A stretch of DNA of 64,000 nucleotides from Brevibacillus ruminantium (GCF_023746555.1 NZ_CP098755.1:3794501-3858500); one strand, 5' to 3'. Positions 6,251 through 22,623 are shown, counted from the stretch's first letter. The notes: generated by a model from the letters alone, not told the origin. A program made the numbers and translations.

Positions 6251-7999
6251 CTAGTTCCGGGTTCTTTCTAAGAGCAGCGCCTTTACTTGCTCTTGCCCCT
6301 CCAGCTGAAGGGCTGCTTCCGCCAGGTCCTTCATCTCATTGAAGGACAGCTGATTGATCAGCTCTCGTGCAGCCAGCACAGACGATGCGTTCATGCTAAA
6401 CCCGTCAAGTCCCATGCCTACGAGCAGCGGGATGGCCAACGGATCGGCAGCCATCTCACCGCACATGCTGACACGGCGGTCATGTCGGTGAGCGGCTTCG
6501 ATCACCAGCTGGATCAAGCGCAGAACAGCTGGATGAAACGGCTGATACAAGCCGGATATTTGCTCGTTCATCCGGTCGCAGGCGAGCGTGTACTGGATCA
6601 AATCATTGGTCCCGATCGACAAAAAGTCGGCCTCCCGGGCAAACAGATCGCTGACCAGGGCCGCTGCCGGCACTTCGATCATCAGTCCTACCTGAATGGC
6701 AGGGTCAAACGGAATCCCCGCTCGTGTAAGCGTCGATTTTGCCTCGGCCAAAAAGCGGTTCGCTGCCCGCCATTCTTCGAGCGTAGCGATCATCGGGTAC
6801 ATCAGCTTGACAGAGCCGTAGTGAGAAGCGCGGAGAATGGCCCGCAGCTGAGTGAGAAACATTTCCTCCCGATCCAGACAAAGCCGGATCGCACGATAGC
6901 CGAGAAAAGGGTTCAGCTCTTTTTGCAGGTTCAAAAGCGGCAGCTCTTTGTCGCCCCCGATATCCAGCGTCCGGATGACGACAGGCTTTCCATTCATGTC
7001 ATGTGCGACTTGCCGATACGCCTGGAACTGCTCTTCTTCATCTGGCATACTGTCCCGGTTCATAAACAAAAACTCGGAGCGAAACAGACCAATACCCTCT
7101 CCGCCAACCCGTAGGACAGCCTGACATTCATCCGGATGGCCGATGTTTGCGCCCAATTCGATACGATGCCCATCCCGGGTCACGGTGGGAAGCTCTGCCC
7201 AGCGTGCTTGTCTCGTTTTCTCGCGCAACCAGTCGGCTCGCTTTTGCTCGTAGAACGCAAGCTCCTTCTCGTCTGGTCGCAGGCAGAATAGTCCTTCTGT
7301 CCCATCCAGCACGATCAGGTCCCCATCCTCTACCTGCTCCAAAGCCCGCCCGAGGCCGACTATTGCCGGGATTCCAAGAGCACGGGCCATAATCGCGGAA
7401 TGCGAGGTGCCGCCTCCGATTTGTGTGGCAAAACCCTTGATCAGGCCGGTATCAAGCTGGGCCGTATCCGATGGAGACAAGTCATGTGCGACAACGATAA
7501 GCGAATCAGGCGCGGTTTTCTTCTCTTCCCGTGCAGATCCTTGCAGATTTCCCCATACAGTACCAGTACCTTGCAGACAGAACAGGAGACGCTGCCCCAC
7601 ATCCCGAATATCTGCCGCGCGTTCCCGCATGTACTCGCCATCCAGCGATGCAAATAAACTCGCCAGCTCGCCCGTCACCTGCTGCACAGCCGCTTCCGCG
7701 TTTATGTTTCCTGCTGCCAGCAGCATCTCGATCGGACCGATCAGCTCCGGGTCTTGCAGCAGCATCATATGGGCCTGAAAAATATCTGCTTCCTTCTGTC
7801 CCAGACGCTTTCTGGTCTGTTCATACAATGTCGCCAGCCCGCTCAATCCCTGCTCGCAGGCTGTTTTGAAACGAGCCAGCTCCTCTTCAGGCGATTTCAC
7901 CTCCTGACCGATTTTTTGAACCTGTTTTTTCCACACCTGTGCCCTGGCAATCGCGACTCCGGCAGATGCGCCTATCCCTTTTACGCGTACGGTTCCCAT
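6251..7999 (-). CDS. ptsI: Phosphoenolpyruvate-protein phosphotransferase (PTS Enzyme I)
   Basis: This cytoplasmic Enzyme I takes phosphate from PEP and passes it to HPr. At 582 residues it is full length. The phosphorylated histidine is about His200 in GGGTSHSAIMARALGIP. The PEP-binding domain shows GIGLFRSEFLFM, IRTLDIGGDKELP and the catalytic Cys in SMCGEMAADP. It starts 2 bp after the ptsH stop. It is the last gene of a dga-like cassette, not next to a ptsG gene, so it may be a second copy dedicated to this cassette. Whether another ptsHI exists elsewhere cannot be seen here. Confidence 0.95.
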   Translation of the reverse strand: MGTVRVKGIGASAGVAIARAQVWKKQVQKIGQEVKSPEEELARFKTACEQGLSGLATLYEQTRKRLGQKEADIFQAHMMLLQDPELIGPIEMLLAAGNINAEAAVQQVTGELASLFASLDGEYMRERAADIRDVGQRLLFCLQGTGTVWGNLQGSAREEKKTAPDSLIVVAHDLSPSDTAQLDTGLIKGFATQIGGGTSHSAIMARALGIPAIVGLGRALEQVEDGDLIVLDGTEGLFCLRPDEKELAFYEQKRADWLREKTRQARWAELPTVTRDGHRIELGANIGHPDECQAVLRVGGEGIGLFRSEFLFMNRDSMPDEEEQFQAYRQVAHDMNGKPVVIRTLDIGGDKELPLLNLQKELNPFLGYRAIRLCLDREEMFLTQLRAILRASHYGSVKLMYPMIATLEEWRAANRFLAEAKSTLTRAGIPFDPAIQVGLMIEVPAAALVSDLFAREADFLSIGTNDLIQYTLACDRMNEQISGLYQPFHPAVLRLIQLVIEAAHRHDRRVSMCGEMAADPLAIPLLVGMGLDGFSMNASSVLAARELINQLSFNEMKDLAEAALQLEGQEQVKALLLERTRN

Positions 8000-8001
8000 G
8001 C

Positions 8002-8262
8002 CTACTCGGCTCCTTGTCCCAGAAAGGCGGCCAGCGCAACCAGCGCCTCTTCCTCATCGGAACCGTCGGCGGTCAGCTTTACGCTCTCTCCGTTTGCCAC
8101 GGCAAGCGACATCACCCCAATGATGCTTTTGGCGTTTACGCTTTTGTCCCCCTTGATCAAACCGATCTCACTGGAAAAGGAGGTGGCCGTTTTTACAAAC
8201 AGCGTCGCCGGCCGGGCATGCAGCCCCTGGGGAAGGTGAACAACGACTTGCTTCTCTCTCAT
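8002..8262 (-). CDS. ptsH: Phosphocarrier protein HPr
   Basis: This 86-residue HPr-family protein carries both regulatory residues: His15 in LPQGLHARPATLFV (phosphorylated by Enzyme I) and Ser46 in VNAKSIIGVMSL (site of HPr kinase). It could therefore act in phosphotransfer and, as HPr-Ser-P, as a CcpA co-repressor. Having His15 excludes a Crh-type protein. It lies between the KDGP aldolase gene and ptsI. The operon promoter contains a cre-like site, so HPr made here could feed back on its own operon. Confidence 0.93.
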   Translation of the reverse strand: MREKQVVVHLPQGLHARPATLFVKTATSFSSEIGLIKGDKSVNAKSIIGVMSLAVANGESVKLTADGSDEEEALVALAAFLGQGAE

Positions 8263-8295
8263 CTCATTTCACTCCTATCTCGATTCGTTGAAAGG

Positions 8296-9020
8296 CTATA
8301 CGGCAGGCAGGGCAGCGAGCAAATCTTCCACCTGATCGAGCCGTGTCAGCCCCGTCTCCCTATCCATAATGGATGTATAGACGTGTGGAATGACCTCTTG
8401 TACGCCTTGCTCCAGGCAGGTTTCCACGATGGGTCGGATGGATTTTGCATCGATCCCGCCTGTCGGCTCGAACACGGGAATGCCGTAACGGGCGGCTGCT
8501 TTTGCCATCATTTTGACTTCCTCCAGCTTTTCGGTTCCGCCGACTGGATAAAATTTGACGGAATGAACGCCGATCTCGGCAAGCATGGCGGCGGCAGCAT
8601 CACAGGACACCAGTTCCTGCAACTGCCCGCTGAGCGGACCTGTTGCGACAATGACCTTTCCCGGCGTGCCGCTCGGCGCAATCAGGGCATTGACCAGCGT
8701 GTGCCGGCTGTCCACTGCCTGCAAGGCACCCAACGTATAGCCGGCGGCAGGAAAAACCTGATTGACGTGATCAGGCTTTGTGAGTACGGCGGTCTCGGCG
8801 ACCTTTCTCCACTGGCTTGGATCGCCTGCACCAGCCCTACTGACACGGGAATGCTTGCCTCCTGGTACGCTCTGATCGTTTCCACAGCGGCCTCCACGGA
8901 AGGGAAGCCTTTTACCATAATGCCGATCAAGACGCGCCCCTCTGCCGTATCTGCAATCTGTCTGGCATTGTCCACATCTCTGGCCAGGACGTTTAATCGT
9001 ATGGCTGGGCTTTTCGTCAT
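8296..9020 (-). pseudogene. KDGP aldolase (DgaF-like), reading frame broken by a single-base frameshift
   Basis: The product would be a DgaF-type 2-keto-3-deoxy-6-phosphogluconate aldolase of about 240 residues. The N-terminal part begins at the ATG at 9020 (MTKSPAIRLNVLARD) and runs to IPVSVGL. The rest continues in another frame from GAGDPSQWRKVAETAV and includes the likely Schiff-base lysine in HSVKFYPVGG and EPTGGIDAKS, ending at 8296. Restoring one G in the GG at about 8831-8832 rejoins the frames as VGLGAGDP. Both halves look intact, so this is either a recent mutation or a base-call error. The start overlaps the DgaE-like stop by 4 bp. Confidence 0.8.
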
Positions 9021-10138
9021 GACTTATCACTCACTTTCTGTTGTCCCCATATCTCTTTGAAGCGTGCGGCAATGACTTTTTCCTGGCCCTCATGGAGCGG
9101 ACGGGGATCGATGAAAATCACTCCTGTATTGGCGTAATGGTTTCGCGTAAAAATGGCGGGATCTCCATTCTCGAGAAGCCGGATCACTTCCTTTGCCGAA
9201 AATCCCGACTCGCGTTCATCAATCCGTACATGTGTCCGGTAAATGTCCCGTCCCGCCTCGTCCTTGACTACACTGGCTGAAAGTCCGGACAATTGGTTCA
9301 ATTCTCGGGCGAGCCATTCCACTCGCCCCCGCAAAACTCCGGTGTGGCCTTCCTCCCGACCGTACCGGCCCAACGCTGTCAGCAATCCGATGATCGCCTC
9401 CTTGCCCGTTTTCATCGCACGCCCCACGCCTTTATACTGAGCCTGGCACGCCTCAATCAGGTCTTTGCGGCCGGTGATAAAACCCGATGTGGGGCCGCCG
9501 ATTGCTTTTGCCCCGCTGTACACGACCAGATCAGATCCCATCGCCACATAGCGGCGCAAATCCTCTTCCGCAGCAGCATCGACGATCACCGGAACCTTGT
9601 ATTCGCGCCCGAGCTGAATCATCTTCTCAAGCGACTGCATGCCTTTTTGCACCGCGTGATGGGATTGCACGTACAAAAGCGCGGCCGTCTGATCGTCTAT
9701 CTCCGCACGCAAATGCGCTTCCTCCACATGATTGGCATGACCTGCCTCGATGGCTTGCCCCCCTCCGAGGGCAATCATTTGCCGCAGCGGCGCTCCAAAA
9801 TGCACGGCGTGTCCTTTTTGCAAAATAATCTTGTTTTTCAGTCCTGCCGAGTCGGGCAATCGTTCGATCAGACGCAGATCGGTACCGGCGATAACAGCCG
9901 CCACGCTGATGGCTACCCCTGCTCCCGCTCCCGCCGTGGGACAGCCGTCCTCGCCGCCGGTAGCCTCGGCGATCAGCTTACCTGCCTTTTTGATGAGCTC
10001 GCTGATCTCTACGTAATCCATCGCTGCCTCACCCATTGCTCGGGCTACTTCCGGGTGGACGGCGCTTCCGCCCAGCGCCGTCATTTTTCCGCTTGCATTG
10101 ATCACTTGCTTCAGCCCTAGCTGCTGATAGATGCCCAT
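9017..10138 (-). CDS. DgaE-like PLP-dependent ammonia lyase (SelA-like fold)
   Basis: This 373-residue fold-type I PLP enzyme resembles DgaE, the D-glucosaminate-6-phosphate ammonia lyase of the Salmonella dga pathway, and more distantly SelA. The N-terminus reads LKQVINASGKMTALGGS; a glycine-rich phosphate-binding segment is TAGAGAGVAISVAA; Asp187 (VIVDAAAEED) and the Schiff-base lysine about Lys211 (VVYSGAKAIGGPTSGF) are in place. The expected product, 2-keto-3-deoxy-6-phosphogluconate or an analogue, is what the overlapping aldolase would split. With the metallohydrolase upstream, the natural substrate may be an N-acylated amino-sugar acid; that is inference. Confidence 0.82.
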   Translation of the reverse strand: MGIYQQLGLKQVINASGKMTALGGSAVHPEVARAMGEAAMDYVEISELIKKAGKLIAEATGGEDGCPTAGAGAGVAISVAAVIAGTDLRLIERLPDSAGLKNKIILQKGHAVHFGAPLRQMIALGGGQAIEAGHANHVEEAHLRAEIDDQTAALLYVQSHHAVQKGMQSLEKMIQLGREYKVPVIVDAAAEEDLRRYVAMGSDLVVYSGAKAIGGPTSGFITGRKDLIEACQAQYKGVGRAMKTGKEAIIGLLTALGRYGREEGHTGVLRGRVEWLARELNQLSGLSASVVKDEAGRDIYRTHVRIDERESGFSAKEVIRLLENGDPAIFTRNHYANTGVIFIDPRPLHEGQEKVIAARFKEIWGQQKVSDKS

Positions 10139-10181
10139 ATCTCATATCCCGTCCTTCCTGATTCTGTTTCCGACGCCTTGT

Positions 10182-10832
10182 TTACTGTGTGGGGATGGGA
10201 AAAATGGCCCCGAGAACCATGGCTCCGATGATCGCTCCTCCGGCGATTGGCTTGTTGTAGTGGTAAAAGATGGCCGCTCCCGCTGTTGCGCCGATTCCAA
10301 CCGGAATGGAGGCCATGATGGCGGAGATGACGATGAGCGGACCGAGATAGCGTCCCGCGGCATTCCCTGCACCCATCATGACATCGGCACCAAATGTGGA
10401 ATTGACCGAATTGATCGTAAATTTGCGAATCAAAATAATAACGGCACCAATCGCCAGTCCCAAGACCGCCCCCGTCGCCAATGCCAGCGGGAAGGAGGTC
10501 AATGGCGCGGTAAACCCGGCACCCAGCATCAAGGCTGGAACGCCAATTCCGATACCTGTTTGCAGAGAACCGCCGATGTCGAGGATGCCGACCAGCGGCC
10601 CCTCCAAAATCCGGGCAAACAGAAAGCTTGCGCCAAACGCGGCAGCTGCTCCGTATCCGCCTCCCTTGATCCCCGCTTCGAGCATGGCAACAATCGCGAT
10701 GTCGTTAAAAGCGCCTACGTGATAGACATAATACAGATGAGTACCGGCAAAGATTCCCGAAGAGAGGCACGCGACAAAGAGGGCAAACGCCCATTCCGAA
10801 TACCAAAATCCTTTTGCTTGCAGTTCATTCAT
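10182..10832 (-). CDS. DUF4310-family multi-pass membrane protein
   Basis: This protein of about 216 residues is mostly hydrophobic with several Gly/Ala-rich membrane helices (SGIFAGTHLYYVYHV, MLEAGIKGGGYGAAAAFG, GPLVGILDIGGSLQTGIGIG). I recognise it as DUF4310, always found with DUF4311, DUF4312 and SFCGS proteins. Start ATG at 10832 overlaps the DUF4311 stop as TAATG, with GGCGGTGA upstream; a longer in-frame start at 10880 would overlap that gene further. No function has been shown for the family as far as I know. Its operon with amino-sugar-acid enzymes and HPr/EI makes a permease component likely. Confidence 0.82.
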   Translation of the reverse strand: MNELQAKGFWYSEWAFALFVACLSSGIFAGTHLYYVYHVGAFNDIAIVAMLEAGIKGGGYGAAAAFGASFLFARILEGPLVGILDIGGSLQTGIGIGVPALMLGAGFTAPLTSFPLALATGAVLGLAIGAVIILIRKFTINSVNSTFGADVMMGAGNAAGRYLGPLIVISAIMASIPVGIGATAGAAIFYHYNKPIAGGAIIGAMVLGAIFPIPTQ

Positions 10833-11620
10833 TATTTCTTCACCGCCGATCCAAATGTTTCGTGAAGCTGTACCAGCCATTCTGGAATCTCTACTTGCAG
10901 GCTCTTTAACAGCGCGACATCAAAGGCACGGAAGAAACCGCTCAAGATAAACAAGAGTGCGACGGCCACGACCATCGTTTTTGTAATCCGGTTCCAGCCG
11001 CTGTCGTCCAGCCCTTTTCCGATCAGGATACCGAGCACGATGCCAGGCACGGCATTGCCCATGACCAGGTGTGACAAGCCGCCGAGTACGGTGCCCCAGA
11101 TCCCTGTCCGCTTGCCAGCATCCAACGCCGCCATCCAGAAGACAATCGGCATGATCGGGTTGATCAACCAGTTGGCGGCAGGAACCAGCACTTTTGTCGC
11201 CACCAGCTGCATCGATTCGGGAATGGCGGTTGCCGTCGAGTTGAGCAGCGTCACGACGACGACACCAACCAGCGCTCCGGCGAACGCCATCCGCTTCGGA
11301 TTGTGCAGCGTTTCTTCAACGTTTTTGTTTTTCCAAAGAAGGATGGCTGCCGACCAGTTCGGGATAACCCGGTGATCGACGTCCTGCGTCAGAGCCCCGG
11401 CCCCCACCACGGAAGCCCATGAGTTGAACAAAAAGCCAAGCCCGAAGGAAAAATGAGAAATGGGATCTCCGGCACAGGCATTCAACTCTCCAAACGTGCG
11501 AAATGCTCCCATCCCCTGGACATTCGGCGCGTGAAACATGCGAGCGGCACCCGCCCCCACACCGAAGCCAACCAATGCCCCAATGACAATCGACTTCAAA
11601 ATGATGATGATCGTTATCAT
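10832..11620 (-). CDS. DUF4311-family multi-pass membrane protein
   Basis: This is a 262-residue integral membrane protein with hydrophobic segments at the start (MITIIIILKSIVIGALVGFGVGAG), around VVGAGALTQDV, at GALVGVVVVTLLNSTATA, at GTVLGGLSHLVMGNAVPGIVLGILIG and near MVVAVALLFILSGFF. I assign it to DUF4311 by sequence and neighbourhood. It is the longer of two membrane subunits and probably forms a channel or permease with the DUF4310 protein. NPIMPIVFWMAALDAG and the Gly/Pro-rich helices resemble carrier cores. Stop and next start overlap by 3 bp, implying fixed stoichiometry. Confidence 0.82.
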   Translation of the reverse strand: MITIIIILKSIVIGALVGFGVGAGAARMFHAPNVQGMGAFRTFGELNACAGDPISHFSFGLGFLFNSWASVVGAGALTQDVDHRVIPNWSAAILLWKNKNVEETLHNPKRMAFAGALVGVVVVTLLNSTATAIPESMQLVATKVLVPAANWLINPIMPIVFWMAALDAGKRTGIWGTVLGGLSHLVMGNAVPGIVLGILIGKGLDDSGWNRITKTMVVAVALLFILSGFFRAFDVALLKSLQVEIPEWLVQLHETFGSAVKK

Positions 11621-11645
11621 GAACCTTCCCCCCTTTTATTTTTTT

Positions 11646-11984
11646 CTATTTCTGACTCAGCACCTGTCCCAGCCGTGCAGCCTGCTCTGCCTGCTTTTGA
11701 AACGGGATGCTTGCCACGTCCACGACACCCAGCCGCACCTGGATATCCACAGTGATGTCGTACTTCGCTCGCGTACGCGGGAAAAACAGGCCGAACAAGC
11801 GCTCCTTGTGAATGCTCTCTGTCGCTGACACGAGCTCCATGTGAACCGGCTCAATCCGCACGACGAGATCACTTGTCTGTCTGGCCACGACCTGCTTGAT
11901 CTGTCCGAATATCTTGTTAAACGCTCCTTCCTTCGTATCCGCACTGCCCGACAACCGCAAGGTCTCGATCCTTTCTTTGTACAT
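11646..11984 (-). CDS. DUF4312-family cytoplasmic protein
   Basis: This is a 112-residue soluble protein, assigned to DUF4312 by its sequence (ETLRLSGSADTKEGAFNKIFGQIK; FGLFFPRTRAKYDITVDIQVRLGVVDV) and its position between SFCGS and DUF4311 genes. It has no signal peptide or membrane segment and looks like an alpha/beta protein. It might be a cytosolic subunit of the DUF4310/4311 membrane pair. It lies 3 bp from the SFCGS gene stop on one side and 25 bp from DUF4311 on the other. No catalytic motif is visible. Confidence 0.78.
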   Translation of the reverse strand: MYKERIETLRLSGSADTKEGAFNKIFGQIKQVVARQTSDLVVRIEPVHMELVSATESIHKERLFGLFFPRTRAKYDITVDIQVRLGVVDVASIPFQKQAEQAARLGQVLSQK

Positions 11985-11987
11985 GGC

Positions 11988-12350
11988 TTACCTCCCCCTC
12001 AGCTTGATGCATTCTTCGGTCATTCTTCTGCCCAGCTCCTCCGTATCCATAAAGCCAAAACCGATCACTTTATTGCCGTTGCGCAAGGCCGTAATTCCCG
12101 CGTCTACAGATCGCAGACCGTATTCAACGGGATAGCCGTACTTTGTCTTGGCCGTCAAGGCGCCTGCTCCCCCGCTGCCGCAAAACGACAAGCCGAGATC
12201 AGCCCCCTCCTGCTTCACGACATCTCCTACTTTCATATCAGCCCCGACTCCCTGAATGACGACGGGGATACCTCCGGCAGCCTCCACTCCTTTGGCGATG
12301 TTCTGCCCCTTTCCCAGACGATCTCCGATCACGATCTTTACTTTTGTCAT
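11988..12350 (-). CDS. Glycine-rich SFCGS-family protein
   Basis: This 120-residue soluble protein carries the family-defining SFCGSGGAGALTAKTKYG segment near residue 55. It starts VKIVIGDRLGKGQNIAKGVEAAGG, which resembles the opening of small PTS IIB or DUF2620-type proteins. The Cys in SFCGS is a conceivable phosphorylation site given that HPr and Enzyme I are in the same operon, but no such role is established. Start ATG at 12350 (MTKVKIV) is chosen; the upstream in-frame extension overlaps the PRD gene heavily and has no homologous look. Confidence 0.78.
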   Translation of the reverse strand: MTKVKIVIGDRLGKGQNIAKGVEAAGGIPVVIQGVGADMKVGDVVKQEGADLGLSFCGSGGAGALTAKTKYGYPVEYGLRSVDAGITALRNGNKVIGFGFMDTEELGRRMTEECIKLRGR

Positions 12351-12390
12351 CACTTCGGCCTCCCCTATACATTCTTTGAACGGCTCGCAT

Positions 12391-12756
12391 TCATTTCCCC
12401 TGGTCCGCTCGTATCGCCTCAAAATGAACAGCAAGCAGAAACACTTCCGTTCGGTCTTCCTGCCAGCCCGTTTCCTGTCCAAACAGGATGCGACGAGACA
12501 GCGCCAACATATTCGGGTGAATCTCCTCGAACAGTTCTGCTTCGACCTCCGGCAGCTTTTCACCGCTCGCCATGCGGCGGACGAAAGCGAGCAGATGAGC
12601 GCAAATGGCCAACCAACGGTAACGCGGTATCTCGTACCTTCTCTCCCGCATTTCCGCCTCGATCATTTGCATGAGTCGCTTACATTCCGAATATTCCGTC
12701 ATTTCTTCATCTGTTGCTCCCGCTACTTCTCTCACAATTTCTTCAATCATGTGCAT
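12391..12756 (-). CDS. Small stand-alone PRD-domain protein
   Basis: This 121-residue helical protein looks like a single PTS-regulation domain without DNA-binding or RNA-binding parts. It contains histidines placed as in PRDs (AICAHLLAFVRRM, EEIHPNMLALSRRI). Stand-alone PRDs of this kind accompany the SFCGS/DUF4310-4312 cluster and are similar in role to YhfY-type proteins. It probably senses phosphorylation by HPr or an EII-like component and may bind the large PRD regulator. It overlaps the metallohydrolase gene by 10 bp. RNA or DNA binding cannot be seen. Confidence 0.7.
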   Translation of the reverse strand: MHMIEEIVREVAGATDEEMTEYSECKRLMQMIEAEMRERRYEIPRYRWLAICAHLLAFVRRMASGEKLPEVEAELFEEIHPNMLALSRRILFGQETGWQEDRTEVFLLAVHFEAIRADQGK

Positions 12757-13901
12757 GTCAAAACCTTTCCTGATGTAATGACCTGTTGGGCGAACACTGC
12801 CTCTTTGGCAAGGATCGTTTCCTGTTCCGAATCGGTCAAAGCGATGGGCATCGTCTCCCTCCGCAAGATCGTGACATCCGCATATGCTCCGGGCGCAAGC
12901 GTCCCAATCTCCCGCTCAAGCCCCAGCACCTTGGCCGGTGCGGATGTGCAGGCCGCCACAATCTCGTACATCGTGAAGCCTAGTGCGAGAAACTTGCTCA
13001 TCGTGTGAGTCAGGCTGTGCACAGGACCGTTCAGATTGCGTGCATGGACGTCCGTGCTGATGGAGTAAGGGGCGATCCCCAGCGCTTTCGCTTGCTGCAT
13101 GGTGCGGAAGCTGAAGCTGGATTCGCCGTGCCCGACATCAAACAGCACTCCTCTGGCCAAGGCGGACTCCGCTTCCGGGAGAAGCTGCCCCCGTACATCC
13201 AGAATGCCTCCTTGTTTACCGTGGAACGCGTGCGTTACCACGTCTCCCTCGTCGAGCAGACTGAGCACCTCGGAAAGGGTCGGGGGGGCATTGCCGATGT
13301 GGACCATCAGCGGAACCCCAGCCTCTCGGGCAGCCTGCTTTGCCACTAGCAAGGGAGCAAGACCATTATTTTTGACTACAGACGCACTCATCCTCGCCTT
13401 GATCCCCCGGATCGACGGCTGCTCACGAATGAGCGTGACCGCGTCCTTCGCTGCCAGTCTGGACATGTCGGACAGTTCGGCTCCTCCCCTGCACAAGCCG
13501 TCCCCTGAGATATTGAGAAACGCCAAAACACGTGTGATCGATGGCTCCACCCCTTCCTTCAGGAAAGCGTCAAATGTCCATGCTCCTGCGCTTCCCGCGT
13601 CGACCAGAGTCGTCACCCCTTGCTCAATGCCAACAGAATCAGCCCTTACTCCCAACTGAGTGCTTTCGGAAATGACATGAGCGTGCAAGTCGATCAGCCC
13701 TGGCGTTACGATACATCCGGCAGCATCTATCGTTTCTCTCGCCTGCACAGGTTCATTGGTCTTCCCGTCATTGGTCTTCCCGTCATCGGTCGTCACGATG
13801 TCCATGATGCGTCCATCTGAAATGACGAGATCATATCCTCCATTCAGCTTCTGGGAAGGATCGATCACCCACCTGTTTCGAATCAGCAAATCAGCACTCA
13901 T
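12747..13901 (-). CDS. Amidohydrolase/deacetylase-family metallohydrolase
   Basis: This is a 384-residue amidohydrolase-superfamily enzyme with a complete binuclear metal site: His73/His75 (GLIDLHAHV), carboxylated Lys168 (GIKARMS), His201 (MVHIGNAP), His224/His227 (VTHAFHG) and Asp284 (STDVHARN). Relatives are dihydroorotase-like deacetylases. In this operon it could remove an acyl group from an N-acyl amino-sugar acid before the DgaE-like lyase acts. Residues about 40-50 contain a duplicated DGKTN unit from a 15-bp tandem repeat, in a surface loop between beta strands. It overlaps the regulator gene by 11 bp. Confidence 0.85.
   Translation of the reverse strand: MSADLLIRNRWVIDPSQKLNGGYDLVISDGRIMDIVTTDDGKTNDGKTNEPVQARETIDAAGCIVTPGLIDLHAHVISESTQLGVRADSVGIEQGVTTLVDAGSAGAWTFDAFLKEGVEPSITRVLAFLNISGDGLCRGGAELSDMSRLAAKDAVTLIREQPSIRGIKARMSASVVKNNGLAPLLVAKQAAREAGVPLMVHIGNAPPTLSEVLSLLDEGDVVTHAFHGKQGGILDVRGQLLPEAESALARGVLFDVGHGESSFSFRTMQQAKALGIAPYSISTDVHARNLNGPVHSLTHTMSKFLALGFTMYEIVAACTSAPAKVLGLEREIGTLAPGAYADVTILRRETMPIALTDSEQETILAKEAVFAQQVITSGKVLTCT
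13754..13783. repeat. Two perfect 15-bp tandem repeats inside the metallohydrolase gene
   Basis: CATTGGTCTTCCCGT occurs twice in direct succession, with a third degraded copy after it. The unit length is a multiple of three, so it only adds DGKTN units to a loop of the enzyme. Confidence 0.85.
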
Positions 13902-15837
13902 TTGCTCCCCCCTCCTTTTCGGAAAAATACCGCAGGATGGCCGTTACTTCACTTTGCGGGACGTTGACTCCGGCTTCCTGCATAATTTGGTTGACGCGAG
14001 TACGCCAGGAGGAATGCGCAGCGGTCTCCTCTCCGCTATGTCTATCCCATTCGTCATAGGAGGAGCCGAATGCAAGCCTGTTTACCATCAGCTGCACATG
14101 CAGCGCCAGCCCGCTTGCCGTCTGCTCCGTCAGTTGGCCGCGGAAAGCCTCCATCAGCTTGCAGCTGATCTCGTATCCTTTTACAATCACATCCTGGGAA
14201 AGCCGCTCCACCAGAGGCAAATCCCTCAGGCTTAGCTCCGCTGTCTGCACAGGCATCCAGGCGTTTGGAGACTTCGCTGAATGCTTCCGCACTCCGTCTG
14301 ATTCCAGCTCTGGCTCCAGCTGGAGCGCTTCCAGACAAGCAAGAATGCGGCCGATGTCCTGACGCGTCGGCAGCGGATTCACGATGACTACGGGTACCTC
14401 TGTTTTCACGGGCAGCACGCTGATAATCACATCTACCTCGCGAGTAGCCAGATACTTCTCTACCTCCAGCGTGGAACAAAGACCCACGACCCGGAGGGAA
14501 CGCACTTCACTCTCCAAATGGTTTTTCAAAAAGCGGGCCGTCCCTCGCCCTGTACCGCAGACGACAAGCGCGCATGCTTTTTTCTTGTCTTGCCAGCGGT
14601 CATAACCGGCTTGAAAATGAAGAACGAGGTAGGCGATGTCAGCATCCATGAGATAAATCCCGTATGGCCAAAACACTTCTTCACAGGAACGTTTCACTGC
14701 ATCAAACATACGTGCATAGGAGCGGCGAATCTCCTCGGTCAACGGGTTGGGATAAAGGACACCTTGCATATACTTCGTCATCCGGTCATTTAGATGGGCG
14801 AAAAGGTGCTCACCGAGCTCCGGATCATCCCACAGCGGCGTCCGTACAATCTCCCCCACCTTTTGAATCAGCTCCCTAGCCGCCTGGAAGATGTCCATCG
14901 ACTGCCTGCTGGCACGTCTCTTCATGTGAACCTGTTCAGCTTCCAGCAGCGGCAAGGAGGAATAGGCGATCTCATGCTCGGGTATTTTCATGTGCAAACG
15001 CTCGCACATCTCATGCACCTTCCGCACGAAAAGAGAGTAGCTGCCCCACTCAGCCGCTTCCGCCAAATCTGCCTCATCCACAGAGACGACATGCCCTCTC
15101 TTGACGCGGTTGACGACAATACAAAGTCGGATCATGATACTGATCAGCGTCCGATCCGGCAGGCTTTTGTCCAGCTTACCGACAAACCTCTTGGTCAACC
15201 GGATGATTTCGTCCAGTTCCGGCTGACTGATGAGCCACTTTTCCAAAAGCGATCCGGCTTCCGTGCCTGGACCGTTCTCCGGCAGGACACCCTGTACCAG
15301 ACGATACATGACGCTGCCATCCAGAGAATCATGTGTCAAACACTCGAGGGCGTAACGCTTCTGTCGTTCGCTTCCTTCCACCCGGATACCGTATCTCTGC
15401 TTGGAAACCAGTTCCAGGTGCAATCCATTGAGCAATTTCTCCGTCTCTTTCACATCGACGACAACGGTATTGCGGCTCACCCCCACGTGATCAGCCAGGT
15501 CGTGCAGACGCTGGTAGCCATCTGAAAGCAGCAGGATAAACGCAAGATGTTTGGCCCGCTCTTTTTGATGAAGGATGACATCCCTGCCGCCGTGCGCATT
15601 GAGGCTGTGCCGGAGACCTTGAAGGACCTCGTCTGCTTCACTAATCCAGATCCCTTTATTCGGTTGGGAATGGAGAATGATGTTGCGCTCTTTCAGCCAT
15701 TGTCTGATGTTCTCCAGATCGTATTTGATCGTCCGCTCGCTCACCTGAAAACCGTTTGCAACCTCTCTGATTTTCAGCGGGTGGGCACTGTCCAGGATCA
15801 CCTTCAAAAGTGCTTGGGAACGCGATGTCAACAGCAT
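13891..15837 (-). CDS. BglG/MtlR-type PRD transcriptional regulator with EIIB-like domain
   Basis: This 648-residue regulator has DNA-binding helix-turn-helix regions at the N-terminus (LKIREVANGFQVSERTIKYD and LADHVGVSRNTVVVDV), two PRDs between roughly residues 180 and 415, and an EIIB-like domain with a phosphorylatable Cys about residue 427 (ALVVCGTGRGTARF). After this it has another helical stretch to the end that looks like a third PRD rather than an EIIA. I start at ATG 15837 because GGGGGTGAG lies 10 nt upstream; a GTG five codons earlier is inside that ribosome site. As first gene of the operon it probably activates it under PTS control. Confidence 0.85.
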   Translation of the reverse strand: MLLTSRSQALLKVILDSAHPLKIREVANGFQVSERTIKYDLENIRQWLKERNIILHSQPNKGIWISEADEVLQGLRHSLNAHGGRDVILHQKERAKHLAFILLLSDGYQRLHDLADHVGVSRNTVVVDVKETEKLLNGLHLELVSKQRYGIRVEGSERQKRYALECLTHDSLDGSVMYRLVQGVLPENGPGTEAGSLLEKWLISQPELDEIIRLTKRFVGKLDKSLPDRTLISIMIRLCIVVNRVKRGHVVSVDEADLAEAAEWGSYSLFVRKVHEMCERLHMKIPEHEIAYSSLPLLEAEQVHMKRRASRQSMDIFQAARELIQKVGEIVRTPLWDDPELGEHLFAHLNDRMTKYMQGVLYPNPLTEEIRRSYARMFDAVKRSCEEVFWPYGIYLMDADIAYLVLHFQAGYDRWQDKKKACALVVCGTGRGTARFLKNHLESEVRSLRVVGLCSTLEVEKYLATREVDVIISVLPVKTEVPVVIVNPLPTRQDIGRILACLEALQLEPELESDGVRKHSAKSPNAWMPVQTAELSLRDLPLVERLSQDVIVKGYEISCKLMEAFRGQLTEQTASGLALHVQLMVNRLAFGSSYDEWDRHSGEETAAHSSWRTRVNQIMQEAGVNVPQSEVTAILRYFSEKEGGANEC

Positions 15838-15887
15838 TCTTTTTCTTCTCACCCCCGTTAAAGTCGCCTTTGACTGGACCCGAGTTC

Positions 15888-16989: not shown

Positions 16990-17233
16990 GACGGCCTCCT
17001 TATGTAAAAGAGAGAGGATTGAAAGTAGAGTAATACACTAAGGATACTACACTTTATCAGATTTCTCGAGGGATCTTTTTCTCTAAGCGATCATCCATCC
17101 TCCTATTTCCATTCACACAGCATTAACACGTTTTTTACAACCGATTCATATGGTTTTCATTTTGTTTGTTTACGATAGGTGACAGAACAATCACACAATC
17201 AAACAGAAACAAAAACAAAAAGGAGCCATGGTG

Positions 17234-18331
17234 ATGAAGGGAAACCAGTTGAGATGGAAACGAACCGCTGCGATTATGACATCTGTTTTTTTGCTTGCGG
17301 GCTGTGCTTCTGAAACGAAGACGACAGCTCCTGCAGACACTTCCGAGCTCACACTTGAGCAGATCGTCGAGAAAGCCAAGCAAGAAGGAGCAGTAAACTC
17401 GGTCGGGATGCCCGATACCTGGGCCAACTGGGGAGAGACCTGGCAAAACCTCTCAAAGCAATACGGCCTGAAACATACCGATACGGACATGTCCAGCGCC
17501 GAGGAACTGGCCAAGTTTGAAGCGGAGAAGAATGACGCCACCGCAGATATTGGCGACGTCGGCATCGCTTTTGGGCCGCTGGCGAAGCAAAAGGATCTCA
17601 CTCTTCCCTACAAAACCTCCTATTGGAATGACATCCCCGACTGGGCGAAGGACGACCAAGGACATTGGCTGCTCGGCTACACAGGTACCCTGGCATTTAT
17701 CACTGATAAAACCAAGGTAAAAAATCCGCCAAAATCCTGGGCTGATCTGAAAAATGGGAACTACAAGGTCTCCGTAGGCGACGTCATGAAAGCAAACCAA
17801 GCGCAATTTGCCGTATTGGCGGCCGCTTATGCCTCCGGCGGCGATGAGAATAACATCCAGCCCGGCATTGATTTTTACGCGGATTTGGCCAAGAAAAAAC
17901 GCTTGAACGCCAGCGATCCAAGCGTAGCTAATCTGGAAAAGGGTGAAATCGAAGTCGCAATCCTCTGGGACTTCAATGCACTGGGCTATCGCGACCAGAT
18001 CGATAAAAACCGCTTTGATGTGGTGATTCCAGAGGAAGCCTCTGTCATCAGCGGCTACGCTACTGTCATTAACAAATACGCGAAGCATCCGCATGCTGCC
18101 ATGCTGGCTCGCGAATATATCCTGTCTGATGAAGGCCATTCCAATCTCGCCCGCGGCTATGCCCGTCCGATCCGGACCAACGCGAAGCTGGATGAAAATG
18201 CAAAAGCTATGCTGCTTCCCGATAACATGTACAAAAATGCCCGTCCTGTCGGCGATCTGAAGTCCTGGGAAGAAACCACCAAGAAATTGCCGCAGCTGTG
18301 GCAAGAGCAGGTATTGATCCATGTCCAATAA
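17234..18331 (+). CDS. ABC transporter substrate-binding lipoprotein (Fe/polyamine/phosphonate-type)
   Basis: This 365-residue extracellular binding protein has a lipoprotein signal (positively charged start, then SVFLLAGCASE). The mature part fits the type 2 solute-binding fold used by iron, polyamine, opine and phosphonate importers (SBP_bac_8-like), with LGYTGTLAFITDKTKVKNPPKSWADL and EIEVAILWDFNALGYRDQ. I prefer ATG at 17234, because AGGAG is 8 nt away, over the ATG at 17228 which is only 2 nt from it. The next gene encodes a phosphodiesterase, so a phosphate ester or phosphonate ligand is plausible. Confidence 0.87.
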   Translation: MKGNQLRWKRTAAIMTSVFLLAGCASETKTTAPADTSELTLEQIVEKAKQEGAVNSVGMPDTWANWGETWQNLSKQYGLKHTDTDMSSAEELAKFEAEKNDATADIGDVGIAFGPLAKQKDLTLPYKTSYWNDIPDWAKDDQGHWLLGYTGTLAFITDKTKVKNPPKSWADLKNGNYKVSVGDVMKANQAQFAVLAAAYASGGDENNIQPGIDFYADLAKKKRLNASDPSVANLEKGEIEVAILWDFNALGYRDQIDKNRFDVVIPEEASVISGYATVINKYAKHPHAAMLAREYILSDEGHSNLARGYARPIRTNAKLDENAKAMLLPDNMYKNARPVGDLKSWEETTKKLPQLWQEQVLIHVQ

Positions 18332-19154
18332 CAAACTGGCAATGATCATGCTCGATGGCCTGCGCTATGATACAGCCGTATCGCATATGGGCTATCTCCA
18401 TCATCTGGTTGAATACGGAAAAGCTTCCCGCTTCCGTGTCCAATCTGAGCTTCCCAGCCTCTCCCGCCCTTTATACGAGGTGCTGCTGACCGGAACGCCG
18501 GTGTGGACAAATGGCGTCACCGGAAACCGGACGGTTCGCTTGTCTCATCAAGAAAGCCTGTTTCACCTGACGAGAAAACAGGGGCTGACCAACGCCACGG
18601 CATCCTACTACTGGGTGAGTGAGCTGTATAACGAGGCCCCCTTTGATCCGCTGAGAGACCGCATCCAACAAAATACGGACAAGCCGATCCAGCACGGTAT
18701 CTTTTATTTCGAAGATCATTATCCCGACACACATCTGTTTGCGGATGCCCACTACCTGCTGAATACCCATGGTCCTGATTTTCTTTACGTGCATTCCATG
18801 AATATCGACGACGACGGGCACAAGTATACGGCTGATTCGATCCAGTACCGCAATCGCGTGCTGGCAGCAGATGCCATTTTGGCAACCGTCCTGCCTGTCT
18901 GGATGGAAAAAGGCTATCAGATTATGATCACAGCCGATCACGGCATGACCGCTGATGGAAATCACGGAGGCACGACTTCGGCCGACAGAGAAGTTCCGTT
19001 ATTTATCATCAGTGATCGCATCGCTCCCGGTATCCTCGAAGAGACGATTTCCCAATTGCAGGTGGCGCCGCTCGCCTGCCATCTGCTGGGCATCCCTGCC
19101 TCGGAGGCGATGCAGCCCCTAACCGTATGTGATCGGAGTCCGGCGTCTCCCTGA
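18321..19154 (+). CDS. Alkaline phosphatase-superfamily phosphodiesterase/nucleotide pyrophosphatase-like protein
   Basis: This 277-residue protein belongs to the type I phosphodiesterase/NPP branch of the alkaline phosphatase superfamily. Metal ligands can be traced: Asp in MIMLDGLRYD, nucleophile region PSLSRPLYEVLLTGT, Asp and His in NIDDDGHKYT, Asp-His in TADHGMTADG, and His in NHGGTTSADREVP. No signal peptide is seen, so it acts in the cytoplasm, perhaps on the imported ester. It begins 11 bp inside the binding-protein gene. Its stop codon sits in the loop of a terminator hairpin that separates it from the permease genes. Confidence 0.83.
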   Translation: MSNNKLAMIMLDGLRYDTAVSHMGYLHHLVEYGKASRFRVQSELPSLSRPLYEVLLTGTPVWTNGVTGNRTVRLSHQESLFHLTRKQGLTNATASYYWVSELYNEAPFDPLRDRIQQNTDKPIQHGIFYFEDHYPDTHLFADAHYLLNTHGPDFLYVHSMNIDDDGHKYTADSIQYRNRVLAADAILATVLPVWMEKGYQIMITADHGMTADGNHGGTTSADREVPLFIISDRIAPGILEETISQLQVAPLACHLLGIPASEAMQPLTVCDRSPASP

Positions 19155-19170
19155 GGGGGCGCCTTTTTCT
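19142..19170 (+). terminator. Intra-operon intrinsic terminator / attenuator
   Basis: GGCGTCTCC and GGGGGCGCC pair over nine positions (two G-T) around loop CTGA, followed by TTTTT. The loop contains the TGA stop of the phosphodiesterase gene. The permease gene starts 26 bp after the T-run with a strong ribosome site, so partial read-through is expected. Confidence 0.78.
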
Positions 19171-19195
19171 CCTCATTCAGGAAAGGAGTCCGCGT

Positions 19196-20041
19196 ATGAA
19201 AAGGTTCACCAGTATGCTTTTTTTGACAACGATGCCCTTCTTTTTGCTGGTCATCCTCTTCCTCATCGTCCCGCTTCTGTCCATGATCAACGGGAGCTTC
19301 CAGACAGACGGAGGAGGAGCCTACACACTCAATCAATACCGTGAAATTTTTACAAATCCTTACTATTGGCAAGCCTTTCAAAACAGTGTGCTGATTTCGT
19401 TTCTGTCCAGTCTGGTCGGGATTGTGGCGGCTGTCTTTGCCACGTATGCGATTACCCGCTTTCCCGATCGCCTGCAGCAGCGAATACTCGTCATTACCAA
19501 CCTGACCTCCAATTTTGCCGGTATCCCGCTCGCCTTTGCCTTTATCGTAATGCTTGGCAACAGCGGACTGTTTATTCTGCTGGCTCGAAAGCTGGGCTTG
19601 GATCTGAGCCAATCCTTCAGTCTCTACTCATGGAGCGGTCTGACGCTGGTGTATATCTACTTTCAACTTCCGCTTGCGGTCATGCTCCTTTTTCCGCTCT
19701 ACCGCGGCGTCCAGAAGCAATGGATGGAAGCTGCCGAACTGCTTGGCGCCTCCCCTCTAAAGTTTTGGCTGAAAATTGGCCTGCCTGTGCTGCTGCCGGG
19801 GATCGCCGGAACGTTCAGCATCCTGTTTGCCAATGCGATGGGGGCCTACGCCTCAGCCTACGCGCTGACGACAAGCAACTACAATCTCGTGCCGATCCGC
19901 ATCGGCGCACTGGTGTCCGGCGATATTTTTGCCCGCCCCGAGCTGGGCAGCGCCCTGGCTGTCCTGCTTGGTCTGACGCTTGCCATCGCTCTGACGCTCA
20001 ATGAATGGCTGACGAGACGGATTCGGAGGGATTTATCGTGA
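19196..20041 (+). CDS. ABC transporter permease, first subunit
   Basis: This is a 281-residue inner-membrane permease with about six hydrophobic segments, beginning with TTMPFFLLVILFLIVPLLSM. The ATPase-contacting EAA loop reads WMEAAELLGASPLKFWLKIGLPVLLPG. It forms the channel with the next gene product. GAAAGGAG precedes the ATG at 19196. The last codon overlaps the GTG start of the second permease (GTGA). The family is the POPT/Fe-type binding-protein-dependent permeases, in line with the binding protein and the TOBE-type ATPase. Confidence 0.9.
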   Translation: MKRFTSMLFLTTMPFFLLVILFLIVPLLSMINGSFQTDGGGAYTLNQYREIFTNPYYWQAFQNSVLISFLSSLVGIVAAVFATYAITRFPDRLQQRILVITNLTSNFAGIPLAFAFIVMLGNSGLFILLARKLGLDLSQSFSLYSWSGLTLVYIYFQLPLAVMLLFPLYRGVQKQWMEAAELLGASPLKFWLKIGLPVLLPGIAGTFSILFANAMGAYASAYALTTSNYNLVPIRIGALVSGDIFARPELGSALAVLLGLTLAIALTLNEWLTRRIRRDLS

Positions 20042-20826
20042 AGCGCTTGAACCTGCCTACTCTTTCTTTTGCCCTGGTGATGATCTACCTGTTTTTGCCA
20101 GTAGCTGCCACTGCGCTCTATTCCCTGGCGACTGAGTGGAACAGCACGGTGCTGCCCGAAGGTCTGACCGTCAAATGGTTCGCGGAGCTGTACAGCGACT
20201 CCCGCTTCTTGCAGGCCTTTGCCCGTTCGTTTCTGCTCAGCGGCCTGACGACCATCGCCGGGATTCTCATCATGGTTCCCGCCATCTTCTCTATCGTCGT
20301 CTATGCACCGAAGCTGGAGCGGCTGGTCCAATTGCTGGTGATGCTGACCTACGCCTTGCCGGGTGTTATCCTGGCCGTCGGACTGATCCGCACCTATGCC
20401 GGTTTGGGCATTCCGATGATTTTGATTGCTGCAGGCGCCTACCTCGTCGGGTTGCTGCCGTTTCTGTACCAGGGAATACGCAACAGCCTTCATACTGTGC
20501 AGGCCCATTCGCTGATGGAAGCAGCCGAGCTTTTGGGGGCCGGTCGCTGGCGTGCTTTTCTGCGGGTGATTGTCCCCAACATCATGCCCGGCATTCTCGT
20601 GTCTGCGCTGCTCTCTTTCTCTATCCTGTTCGGCGAATTTGTGCTGATCAACATCTTGGTCGGCGGCCGCTATGAAACCCTGCAGATTTATCTGTATAAC
20701 AAGCTGTCCAAAAGCGGACACATCGCCAGCGCGATTACCGTCACTTACTTTATCCTGATGGCCGTCATCACCGGCCTGATCGTAAAATTTACCCGCGGCG
20801 GCTCCGCCCAAAAGGAGGTATCCTGA
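20038..20826 (+). CDS. ABC transporter permease, second subunit
   Basis: This is a 262-residue permease with a GTG start at 20038, preceded by GGAGGG at 7 nt and overlapping the stop of the first permease by 4 bp. Hydrophobic segments begin with TLSFALVMIYLFLPVAATALYSL. The EAA loop is SLMEAAELLGAGRWRAFLRVIVPNIMPG. It would be the heterodimer partner of the first permease. An in-frame ATG at 20005 exists but would extend into charged residues unlike a permease N-terminus, so it was not used. Confidence 0.9.
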   Translation: MKRLNLPTLSFALVMIYLFLPVAATALYSLATEWNSTVLPEGLTVKWFAELYSDSRFLQAFARSFLLSGLTTIAGILIMVPAIFSIVVYAPKLERLVQLLVMLTYALPGVILAVGLIRTYAGLGIPMILIAAGAYLVGLLPFLYQGIRNSLHTVQAHSLMEAAELLGAGRWRAFLRVIVPNIMPGILVSALLSFSILFGEFVLINILVGGRYETLQIYLYNKLSKSGHIASAITVTYFILMAVITGLIVKFTRGGSAQKEVS

Positions 20827-21845
20827 TGAGTTACGTGCAGATAGAAAATTTGACCAAGACGTTTCACGGCCAGCCCGTCTTGAATCAGTTGTCGCTTGCG
20901 ATCCAAAAAGGCGAGCTGGTCACGCTCTTGGGCCCGAGCGGCTGCGGAAAGAGCACGCTGCTCCGCATTCTCTCCGGATTGACCGCATCGGATAGCGGTT
21001 CGATTCACATCGATGGAAAAGACGTCACCGCGGTACAGCCGAAGGAACGGGAAATCGGCATGGTGTTCCAGTCGTACGCACTGTTTCCCAACCTGAACGT
21101 CAGTGAAAATATCGGATTCGGGCTGGAAATGAAAAAAGTGGCCAAAGCGGAGATGCAGCGCCGCGTCCAGGAAATGATTGAGCTGGTGGGTCTGACGGGA
21201 AAGGAAAGGGCCTATCCCCGGGAGTTGTCCGGCGGGCAGCAGCAGCGTGTCGCACTTGCCCGCTCTCTTGTAACCCGGCCGAAGGTGCTGCTGCTCGATG
21301 AGCCGCTAAGCGCATTGGATGCGCAAATCCGTAAAAATCTGCAAAAGCAGTTGCGAACGATCCAACGCGAGCTGAACATGACCACGGTGCTGGTCACGCA
21401 TGATCAGGAGGAAGCGATGGCCGTCAGTGACCGCATTTACATCATGAACGGCGGTCGCATCGTTCAACACGGCAATCCGCACGAAATATACACCCAGCCG
21501 CGTTCTGAATTCGTGGCCCGCTTTATTGGCAATTACAACGTTCTCACGGCGGAACAGCTTGGCCGCATTGCACCCGGCTTGCCTCTTCCTGCAGCAGAGC
21601 GCTATGCCATCCGGCCAGAGACTCTGCGTGAGGCGCCCGCGGCGGAAGGCGGCATCCCTTTGACCGGAACCATCGACAACATCACCATGCTGGGCAACTT
21701 TACCCGCTACGAAATCGCCGTCGACAATGTCCAGCTGCTCGCCGATCACCTGCACCTCTCCTATCAGCCAGAGCATGCCGGAAAAGCGAAGACGCTGTAT
21801 ATCTGCCCAGAGGATGTGATTCCGCTTCATGACACTTTTGCCTGA
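20826..21845 (+). CDS. ABC transporter ATP-binding protein with TOBE-like C-terminus
   Basis: This 339-residue ATPase energises the importer. Walker A GPSGCGKST, Q-loop VFQSYALFPN, signature LSGGQQQRVALARSL, Walker B VLLLDEPLSALD and H-loop VTHDQEEAM are all intact. The last about 110 residues (YAIRPETLREAP; TGTIDNITMLGNFTRYEI) form a TOBE-like regulatory domain common in CysA/PotA/FbpC-type importers. The start ATG at 20826 overlaps the permease stop and has AAAAGGAGG at 8 nt. It overlaps the DeoR gene by 17 bp. Confidence 0.93.
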   Translation: MSYVQIENLTKTFHGQPVLNQLSLAIQKGELVTLLGPSGCGKSTLLRILSGLTASDSGSIHIDGKDVTAVQPKEREIGMVFQSYALFPNLNVSENIGFGLEMKKVAKAEMQRRVQEMIELVGLTGKERAYPRELSGGQQQRVALARSLVTRPKVLLLDEPLSALDAQIRKNLQKQLRTIQRELNMTTVLVTHDQEEAMAVSDRIYIMNGGRIVQHGNPHEIYTQPRSEFVARFIGNYNVLTAEQLGRIAPGLPLPAAERYAIRPETLREAPAAEGGIPLTGTIDNITMLGNFTRYEIAVDNVQLLADHLHLSYQPEHAGKAKTLYICPEDVIPLHDTFA

Positions 21846-22602
21846 AGAACGAAAGCAAGTGATTATGGATGAACTGCTGCGAAACGGAAAAATCCAGGTG
21901 ATCAACCTGGCCAAGCAGCTTGTCGTCACACCGGAGACGATCCGCCGCGATCTCGATGATCTGGAACAACAGCGCCTGCTCAAACGGGTTTATGGCGGTG
22001 CCATTCCCTATTCCTATGCCAAGCGAGAGCCGCATTTTGAAAAGAAACAGGCGATCCAGCAGGAGGCCAAAGCCCTGATCGGAGGCATCGCCGCCCGGCT
22101 GCTATGCGATGGAGATACCATCGTACTCGATGTCGGCACGACTACCCTGGAAATGGCCCGTGCGATCAAAGGGATCAGCCAGCTCACGATCGTCACCAAC
22201 TCGCTTCCCGCTGCTTCCCTGCTCAATGATCTGCTGGAAGCGAAGGTTTTTGACGGCCAAGTAATCATGCTGGGCGGTGTCACCCACCCTGCGCAGAAAT
22301 CCGTTGCCGGAACCTTTACCTGTGAACAGCTTTCCCGCTTCCGCTTTGACAAAGCCTTCCTCTCGTGCGGGGGTATCGCCCTGGATGGCTTTACCGACTA
22401 CGACATGGAGGAAACCCTGTGCTCAGCCATGATGGCGAAACGGGCGGAACAGGTCTATATGCTCGCCGACGAAACAAAGCTGGGCCAAACCCAATTTTTC
22501 CGAATCTGCGGCTGGGAGGAAGTCACTGCTGTCATTTGTGACCAGCCCATGCCTGATGAATGGCGCACGTCCTCTTTGTCCATCAACTGGATGCACCCAT
22601 GA
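21829..22602 (+). CDS. DeoR/GlpR-family transcriptional regulator
   Basis: This 257-residue DeoR-family regulator has the N-terminal winged HTH (MTLLPEERKQVIMDELLRNG; VVTPETIRRDLDDLEQQRLL) and the sugar-phosphate-sensing domain (DGDTIVLDVGTTTLEMARAI; TIVTNSLPAA; FLSCGGIALDGFTD). Family members usually repress until a phosphorylated intermediate binds. Being co-transcribed with the importer, phosphodiesterase and PHP phosphatase, it probably senses a sugar or polyol phosphate released by them. Start ATG lies inside the ATPase gene. Confidence 0.9.
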   Translation: MTLLPEERKQVIMDELLRNGKIQVINLAKQLVVTPETIRRDLDDLEQQRLLKRVYGGAIPYSYAKREPHFEKKQAIQQEAKALIGGIAARLLCDGDTIVLDVGTTTLEMARAIKGISQLTIVTNSLPAASLLNDLLEAKVFDGQVIMLGGVTHPAQKSVAGTFTCEQLSRFRFDKAFLSCGGIALDGFTDYDMEETLCSAMMAKRAEQVYMLADETKLGQTQFFRICGWEEVTAVICDQPMPDEWRTSSLSINWMHP

Positions 22603-22623
22603 TCGCGAAGGAGAGAAGACAAC

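Follow-up and report, generated by a model that had tools for sequence, protein, structure and literature searches.

D-glucosaminate is used by Salmonella through the dga pathway, in which DgaE and DgaF are combined with a mannose-family phosphotransferase system (PTS) (PMC4987338). The ong pathway of Pseudoalteromonas handles N-acetylglucosaminate in oxidative chitin use and relies on a sodium symporter and a 2-keto-3-deoxygluconate (KDG) kinase (PMC9537276). The operon described here lies in a stretch of 64,000 nucleotides from Brevibacillus ruminantium (GCF_023746555.1, NZ_CP098755.1:3794501-3858500; hereafter the window) and consists of 11 genes arranged head to tail on the minus strand, from position 15852 down to 6251, with overlaps or gaps of at most 43 bp. 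It combines DgaE- and DgaF-family genes with the membrane proteins DUF4310 and DUF4311, the small proteins DUF4312 and SFCGS, two PTS regulation domain (PRD) proteins, an amidohydrolase, and HPr and Enzyme I (EI) of the PTS. We put the probability at about one half that this operon encodes a PTS-driven uptake that phosphorylates its substrate, together with the subsequent catabolism. The substrate is most likely an amino-aldonate, with D-glucosaminate or an N-acyl form such as N-acetyl-D-glucosaminate as the likeliest candidates.

Most of the operon is defined by the NCBIfam families TIGR03577-TIGR03583, a set of hypothetical equivalogs describing the conserved cluster EF_0829-EF_0839/AHA_3910-3917, to which no function has been assigned. 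All seven families are matched and adjacent in the window, which makes it a member of this cluster, with DUF4312, the small PRD protein, the amidohydrolase and the frameshifted DgaF falling below the curated cut-offs. A search of the open literature found no study of a cluster of the EF_0829-EF_0839 type. In Enterococcus faecalis, EF0839 is regarded as an Eda-like enzyme with a possible tie to amino-sugar metabolism and EF0838 came up in a transposon screen (PMC7701990), while EF0839 is also among the urine-induced genes (PMC2912369). The conserved cluster as such was therefore already known; the evidence for a link to the PTS, the RpiB fold of SFCGS, the argument from the phosphate site of DgaE and the parallel with YhfY-YhfU-YhfT are new.

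The conserved core and its occurrence with PTS proteins

A scan of genome contigs yielded at least 501 stretches encoding the cluster, among which 79 loci were read. They are distributed over Bacillota, Enterobacterales and their relatives, and Actinomycetota, with the closest relatives of the window cluster in Brevibacillus. The small PRD protein (12391..12756; TIGR03582, E 8e-15), SFCGS (11988..12350; PF14272, E 1e-57), DUF4312 (11646..11984; PF14189, E 7e-26), DUF4311 (10832..11620; PF14188, E 2e-121) and DUF4310 (10182..10832; PF14187, E 4e-106) occur together in nearly all of these loci, and five (L030, L044, L056, L064, L088) contain only the activator and this core, with no catabolic genes. 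As the core-only loci keep both SFCGS and DUF4312, these two proteins are parts of the transport unit and not of the catabolic enzyme set. This agrees with the sequence-only reading, which had assigned the four DUF and SFCGS proteins to a transporter, and the small PRD protein has to be added to them. The core is present twice, in tandem, in Brevibacillus daliensis. Apparent long fusions in L054, L074, L077 and L078 proved to be over-extended open reading frames (ORFs), and weak DUF4311 matches in G204/G301 were set aside as chance since L016 falls on an MFS-like ORF.

EI (PF05524) was found in 38 of 38 cluster-bearing genome entries, which correspond to 36 distinct genomes as the pairs G244/G416 and G384/G404 have identical places, against 118 of 299 in the phylum sample; this comparison is a rough one because the cluster genomes are skewed towards PTS-rich groups. 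HPr was likewise present in all 32 cluster genomes tested. The proposed tie between the core and the PTS is thus supported, and a wide occurrence of the cluster without PTS components was not seen. Linkage points in the same direction: 26 of the 79 loci, in both Bacillota and Actinobacteria, have an HPr gene close to the cluster, against about one expected by our own arithmetic (4 HPr genes in 5.6 Mb, relatedness ignored). HPr heads two of the five core-only loci (L030, L044), and in a Streptomyces locus (L070) it is fused to DgaE (11587-13140).

In the window, HPr (8002..8262; PF00381, E 1e-30) with its GLHARPA phosphorylation site is followed by EI (6251..7999; TIGR01417, E 4e-197) with the active-site histidine in GGGTSHSAI. 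Another EI, paired with an HPr of its own, is encoded in the genome, which has four HPr-type genes in total; the pair in the window is thus an extra copy, and its EI shares 53% identity with the housekeeping EI. EI is otherwise linked to the cluster in G159 and in 8 of the 79 loci, these being from Paenibacillus and having EI on the opposite flank. In a phylogenetic tree, the window EI falls outside the well-supported clade of Paenibacillus cluster EIs, with deeper nodes left open. The private ptsH-ptsI pair that had been proposed is therefore real in the window but is no general feature of the clusters, most of which must depend on the general HPr and EI.

Catabolic genes and the proposed phosphate of the substrate

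All genes named in the sequence-only reading, among them DgaE- and DgaF-like genes kept without PTS Enzyme II (EII) genes, were confirmed on the minus strand by strong family matches. The DgaE-family pyridoxal phosphate-dependent ammonia-lyase (9017..10138; TIGR01437, E 2e-141) scores 447 bits, below the 600-bit equivalog cut-off of NF047797. In Salmonella DgaE, Arg301, Arg332 and Arg346 were placed at the phosphate of the substrate by manual docking (PMC9529869). These phosphate-site arginines are present in the window protein and are kept in 73, 72 and 72 of 74 cluster DgaEs, respectively, the remainder being alignment gaps; the count has no control from SelA relatives with unphosphorylated substrates. 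No kinase was found among the 20 operon-extension ORFs scanned (out of 30), a result that does not exclude the rest of the genome. As the arginines are retained and the chemistry of 2-keto-3-deoxy-6-phosphogluconate (KDPG) comes without a linked kinase, the substrate probably receives its phosphate during uptake.

The DgaF-family KDPG aldolase gene (8296..9020; PF07071, E 2e-55) is interrupted by a deletion of one base near 8830, whereas its frame is intact in Brevibacillus centrosporus; either an error in the sequence or a genuine defect could explain the difference. Four Actinobacteria loci (L067, L068, L070, L073) encode an Eda-type KDPG aldolase instead of DgaF. The amidohydrolase/deacetylase of the EF_0837 family (12747..13901; NF006689, E 6e-127), for which deacylation of the substrate is proposed, suggests an N-acyl substrate, and by analogy with the ong pathway N-acetylglucosaminate is plausible. 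Solved relatives of this enzyme bear varied names and do not fix the substrate. HAD-family phosphatases lie directly downstream of the cluster in L039-L041, L049, L052, L059, L060, L178 and L180, with the calls in L039, L049, L052 and L059 coming from Pfam scans.

Candidate phosphate carriers and membrane proteins

The AlphaFold model of SFCGS is confident (pLDDT 94, pTM 0.88), and RpiB/LacAB isomerases make up nearly all of its top matches in the PDB (Foldseek E 1e-4). For these, VIA Z ranges from 12.0 (117 residues, 2.9 A) down to 8, followed by unrelated receiver domains at about 7.5. In profile alignments, the cysteines of SFCGS and of its relative YhfU (DUF2620) fall into the catalytic-cysteine stretch of RpiB (E 8e-4 and 2.5e-4, respectively); the relationship of SFCGS to YhfU itself has P 88 and E 3.5e-6. 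About 30 profile pairs were compared with hhalign, which gives E-values per pair, and an E of about 1e-3 between SFCGS and RpiB counts only alongside the fold search. SFCGS, with 120 residues, has no counterpart of the C-terminal conserved region of RpiB (GGRH-R) in the profile alignment, as distinct from a superposition, and the family alignment contains no conserved histidine. SFCGS is thus predicted to have an RpiB/LacAB fold with a Cys-glycine catalytic loop, which does not bear out the proposal that it resembles EIIA or EIIB. A phosphocysteine would still be compatible with such a fold, and the invariant Cys57 would be either a catalytic residue or a phosphate acceptor set in an uncommon fold. 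A likeness of SFCGS to the motif of glucitol EIIB was noted by eye but came without profile similarity, and that of its GDRLGKGQ to DDRLIHGQ of mannose EIIB was noise (E 0.08).

A second candidate phospho-acceptor, overlooked in the sequence-only reading and as good as the SFCGS cysteine, is offered by the small single-PRD protein. Its His54 and His111 are kept in 99% of 78 aligned members, so that the family has the two conserved, putatively phosphorylatable histidines expected of a PRD, even though the window protein, at 20.9 bits, stays just short of the 23-bit Pfam threshold. The small PRD protein is fused to SFCGS in a single ORF in L180 (10134-10883), which also shows a weak PF02502 match (E 0.0035), and to the activator in L056. 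The cluster in L180 may be decaying, since DUF4311 there carries a stop codon (TAG). The larger PRD protein (13891..15852, with a possible ATG start at 15837) contains HTH_11, Mga and PRD domains; as a Pfam domain search gave no match to an RNA-binding (CAT) domain, it looks like a transcriptional activator rather than an antiterminator. A weak match to an EIIB-like domain (PF02302, E 0.03), with the motif CGTGRGT, also lies in this protein.

A parallel that had escaped the sequence-only reading is found in E. coli, where yhfY (encoding a PRD protein), yhfU, yhfT and yhfS stand in one gene row. PRD, YhfU and YhfT genes are adjacent in 10 of 11 Bacillota loci, in which the first PRD histidine and the YhfU cysteine are invariant; this YhfT set was drawn from Bacillota, as a sample of 274 genomes around Klebsiella had yielded no YhfT. 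Consecutive accessions in a gene list of Lactobacillus rhamnosus likewise belong to a PRD and a DUF2620 protein and to a membrane protein (PMC7513527). A trio of a histidine-bearing PRD, an SFCGS-type cysteine protein and a membrane protein is thus found in both systems.

By sequence, the membrane proteins themselves resemble none of the EII components compared. SFCGS, DUF4312, DUF4311 and DUF4310 gave no match to the PTS EII Pfam families at E<=1, and profile comparisons of DUF4310 and DUF4311 with mannose EIIC/EIID, glucitol EII and YhfT showed no similarity, the mannose and glucitol comparisons for the DUF and SFCGS proteins staying at noise level. DUF4311 has invariant Cys49, Asp52, His56, Asp80 and His83, while DUF4312 is a small soluble protein without conserved histidine or cysteine. 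The model of DUF4311 is mediocre (pLDDT 78, pTM 0.63) and matches no known fold; the 140 chains aligned to it include no EIIC-like chain, which is uninformative either way. A single-sequence match that made DUF4311 part of YhfT (E 0.004) was gone once an alignment was used, and profile comparison showed no similarity between DUF4310 and DUF4311.

Competing explanations and related systems

In a scheme of phosphorylating uptake, DUF4310 and DUF4311 would form the membrane carrier, with DUF4312, SFCGS and the small PRD protein as its soluble partners. Phosphate would pass from phosphoenolpyruvate through EI and HPr to a core protein, by way of the PRD histidines and/or the SFCGS cysteine, and from there to C6 of the substrate during uptake. 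The acyl group would be taken off by the amidohydrolase, DgaE would eliminate ammonia to give KDPG, and DgaF (in some Actinobacteria a classical Eda-type aldolase) would split KDPG into pyruvate and glyceraldehyde-3-phosphate, while the PRD activator would sense the phosphorylation state. Several observations weigh against this scheme: dgaF is frameshifted in the B. ruminantium genome, SFCGS has a fold of the isomerase type, EII similarity is absent from all four DUF and SFCGS proteins, the mediocre DUF4311 model matched no carrier fold, most of the 79 clusters lack their own HPr and EI, a kinase may be encoded elsewhere in the genome, and PRDs alone can be regulatory, as the PRD-activator fusion suggests.

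In one alternative, DUF4310/4311 are an ordinary non-phosphorylating permease that the PTS only regulates, through HPr and the PRD proteins, and the substrate receives its phosphate from an unlinked kinase. Regulation is the classical role of PRD domains, the fusion in L056 joins the small PRD to an activator, and the lack of EII similarity fits a permease of this kind. The symporter and KDG kinase of the ong pathway are a precedent (PMC9537276). We nevertheless consider it unlikely: the conserved arginines of DgaE imply that phosphate should be added before this enzyme, the operons offered no kinase, and the repeated recruitment of HPr and EI, up to a DgaE-HPr fusion, exceeds what regulation would need. 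It is likewise rather unlikely that SFCGS is an RpiB/LacAB-type isomerase or epimerase with the cysteine as acid/base group, an explanation that concerns a single part and overlaps with the others. The order of the structural matches, the position of the cysteine and the PF02502 match in L180 speak for it, but SFCGS is retained in operons without any catabolic enzymes, lacks both the GGRH-R region and a conserved histidine, and is fused to a PRD in L180.

The model as originally proposed, with DUF4310/4311 as diverged EIIC/EIID and SFCGS/DUF4312 as EIIA/EIIB folds of a known PTS family, accounts for the number and kind of parts, similar to a mannose-type PTS, and for the DgaE and DgaF shared with Salmonella (PMC4987338); the RpiB-like fold and the noise-level EII comparisons make it very improbable. 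Even less credit is due to an incidental duplication of ptsHI that is functionally unconnected with the cluster. EI is missing from the cluster in most relatives and the genome has another HPr-EI pair, but this explanation would have to accommodate the 26 loci with HPr in two phyla, the EI genes adjoining the cluster in the window, Paenibacillus and G159, and the HPr fused to DgaE.

PTS permeases fall into few superfamilies, each with defined folds. We see a minority chance that the operon represents a hitherto unrecognised type of group-translocating transporter. EI and HPr would feed phosphate to a small PRD (histidine) and an RpiB-fold protein (cysteine), these two would serve non-homologous membrane proteins in the manner of EIIA and EIIB, and YhfY-YhfU-YhfT of E. 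coli would be a second branch. If this is true, PTS-powered transporters would gain a class assembled from unrelated parts, several families of unknown function would gain one, and the yhf operon of E. coli would become testable. It would also give a way into studying how soil and gut bacteria use amino-sugar acids, among them perhaps products of oxidised chitin. Elsewhere in the window, inspection by eye of positions 17228-23634 suggests genes for an ABC importer and its solute-binding protein, along with a phosphodiesterase-like enzyme, a PHP-type phosphatase and a regulator of the DeoR type; together they may form an operon for the uptake of phosphorus compounds.

Among the known systems, the EF_0829-EF_0839 cluster has the same adjacent families as the window, which has HPr and EI alongside. 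RpiB/LacAB isomerases have the fold and the Cys-glycine motif in common with SFCGS, which is shorter, lacks their C-terminal conserved region and accompanies transport genes. The E. coli row yhfZYXW-php-yhfUTS and the Bacillota YhfY-YhfU-YhfT loci combine, like the window, a small PRD, a cysteine-containing SFCGS relative and a membrane protein; they differ in that YhfT is not detectably similar to DUF4310/4311, no DUF4312 was seen in them, and the other enzymes are different, YhfS being annotated as a putative aminotransferase. Salmonella dgaABCDEF shares with the window the DgaE and DgaF families, PRD-type activation and the 6-phospho substrate of DgaE, but has classical EII genes where the window has DUF4310/4311/4312, SFCGS and the small PRD, plus the amidohydrolase. 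The ong pathway and the window both have a deacetylase followed by a deaminase and end at KDPG, with a PTS-linked transporter in the window taking the place of the sodium symporter and KDG kinase.

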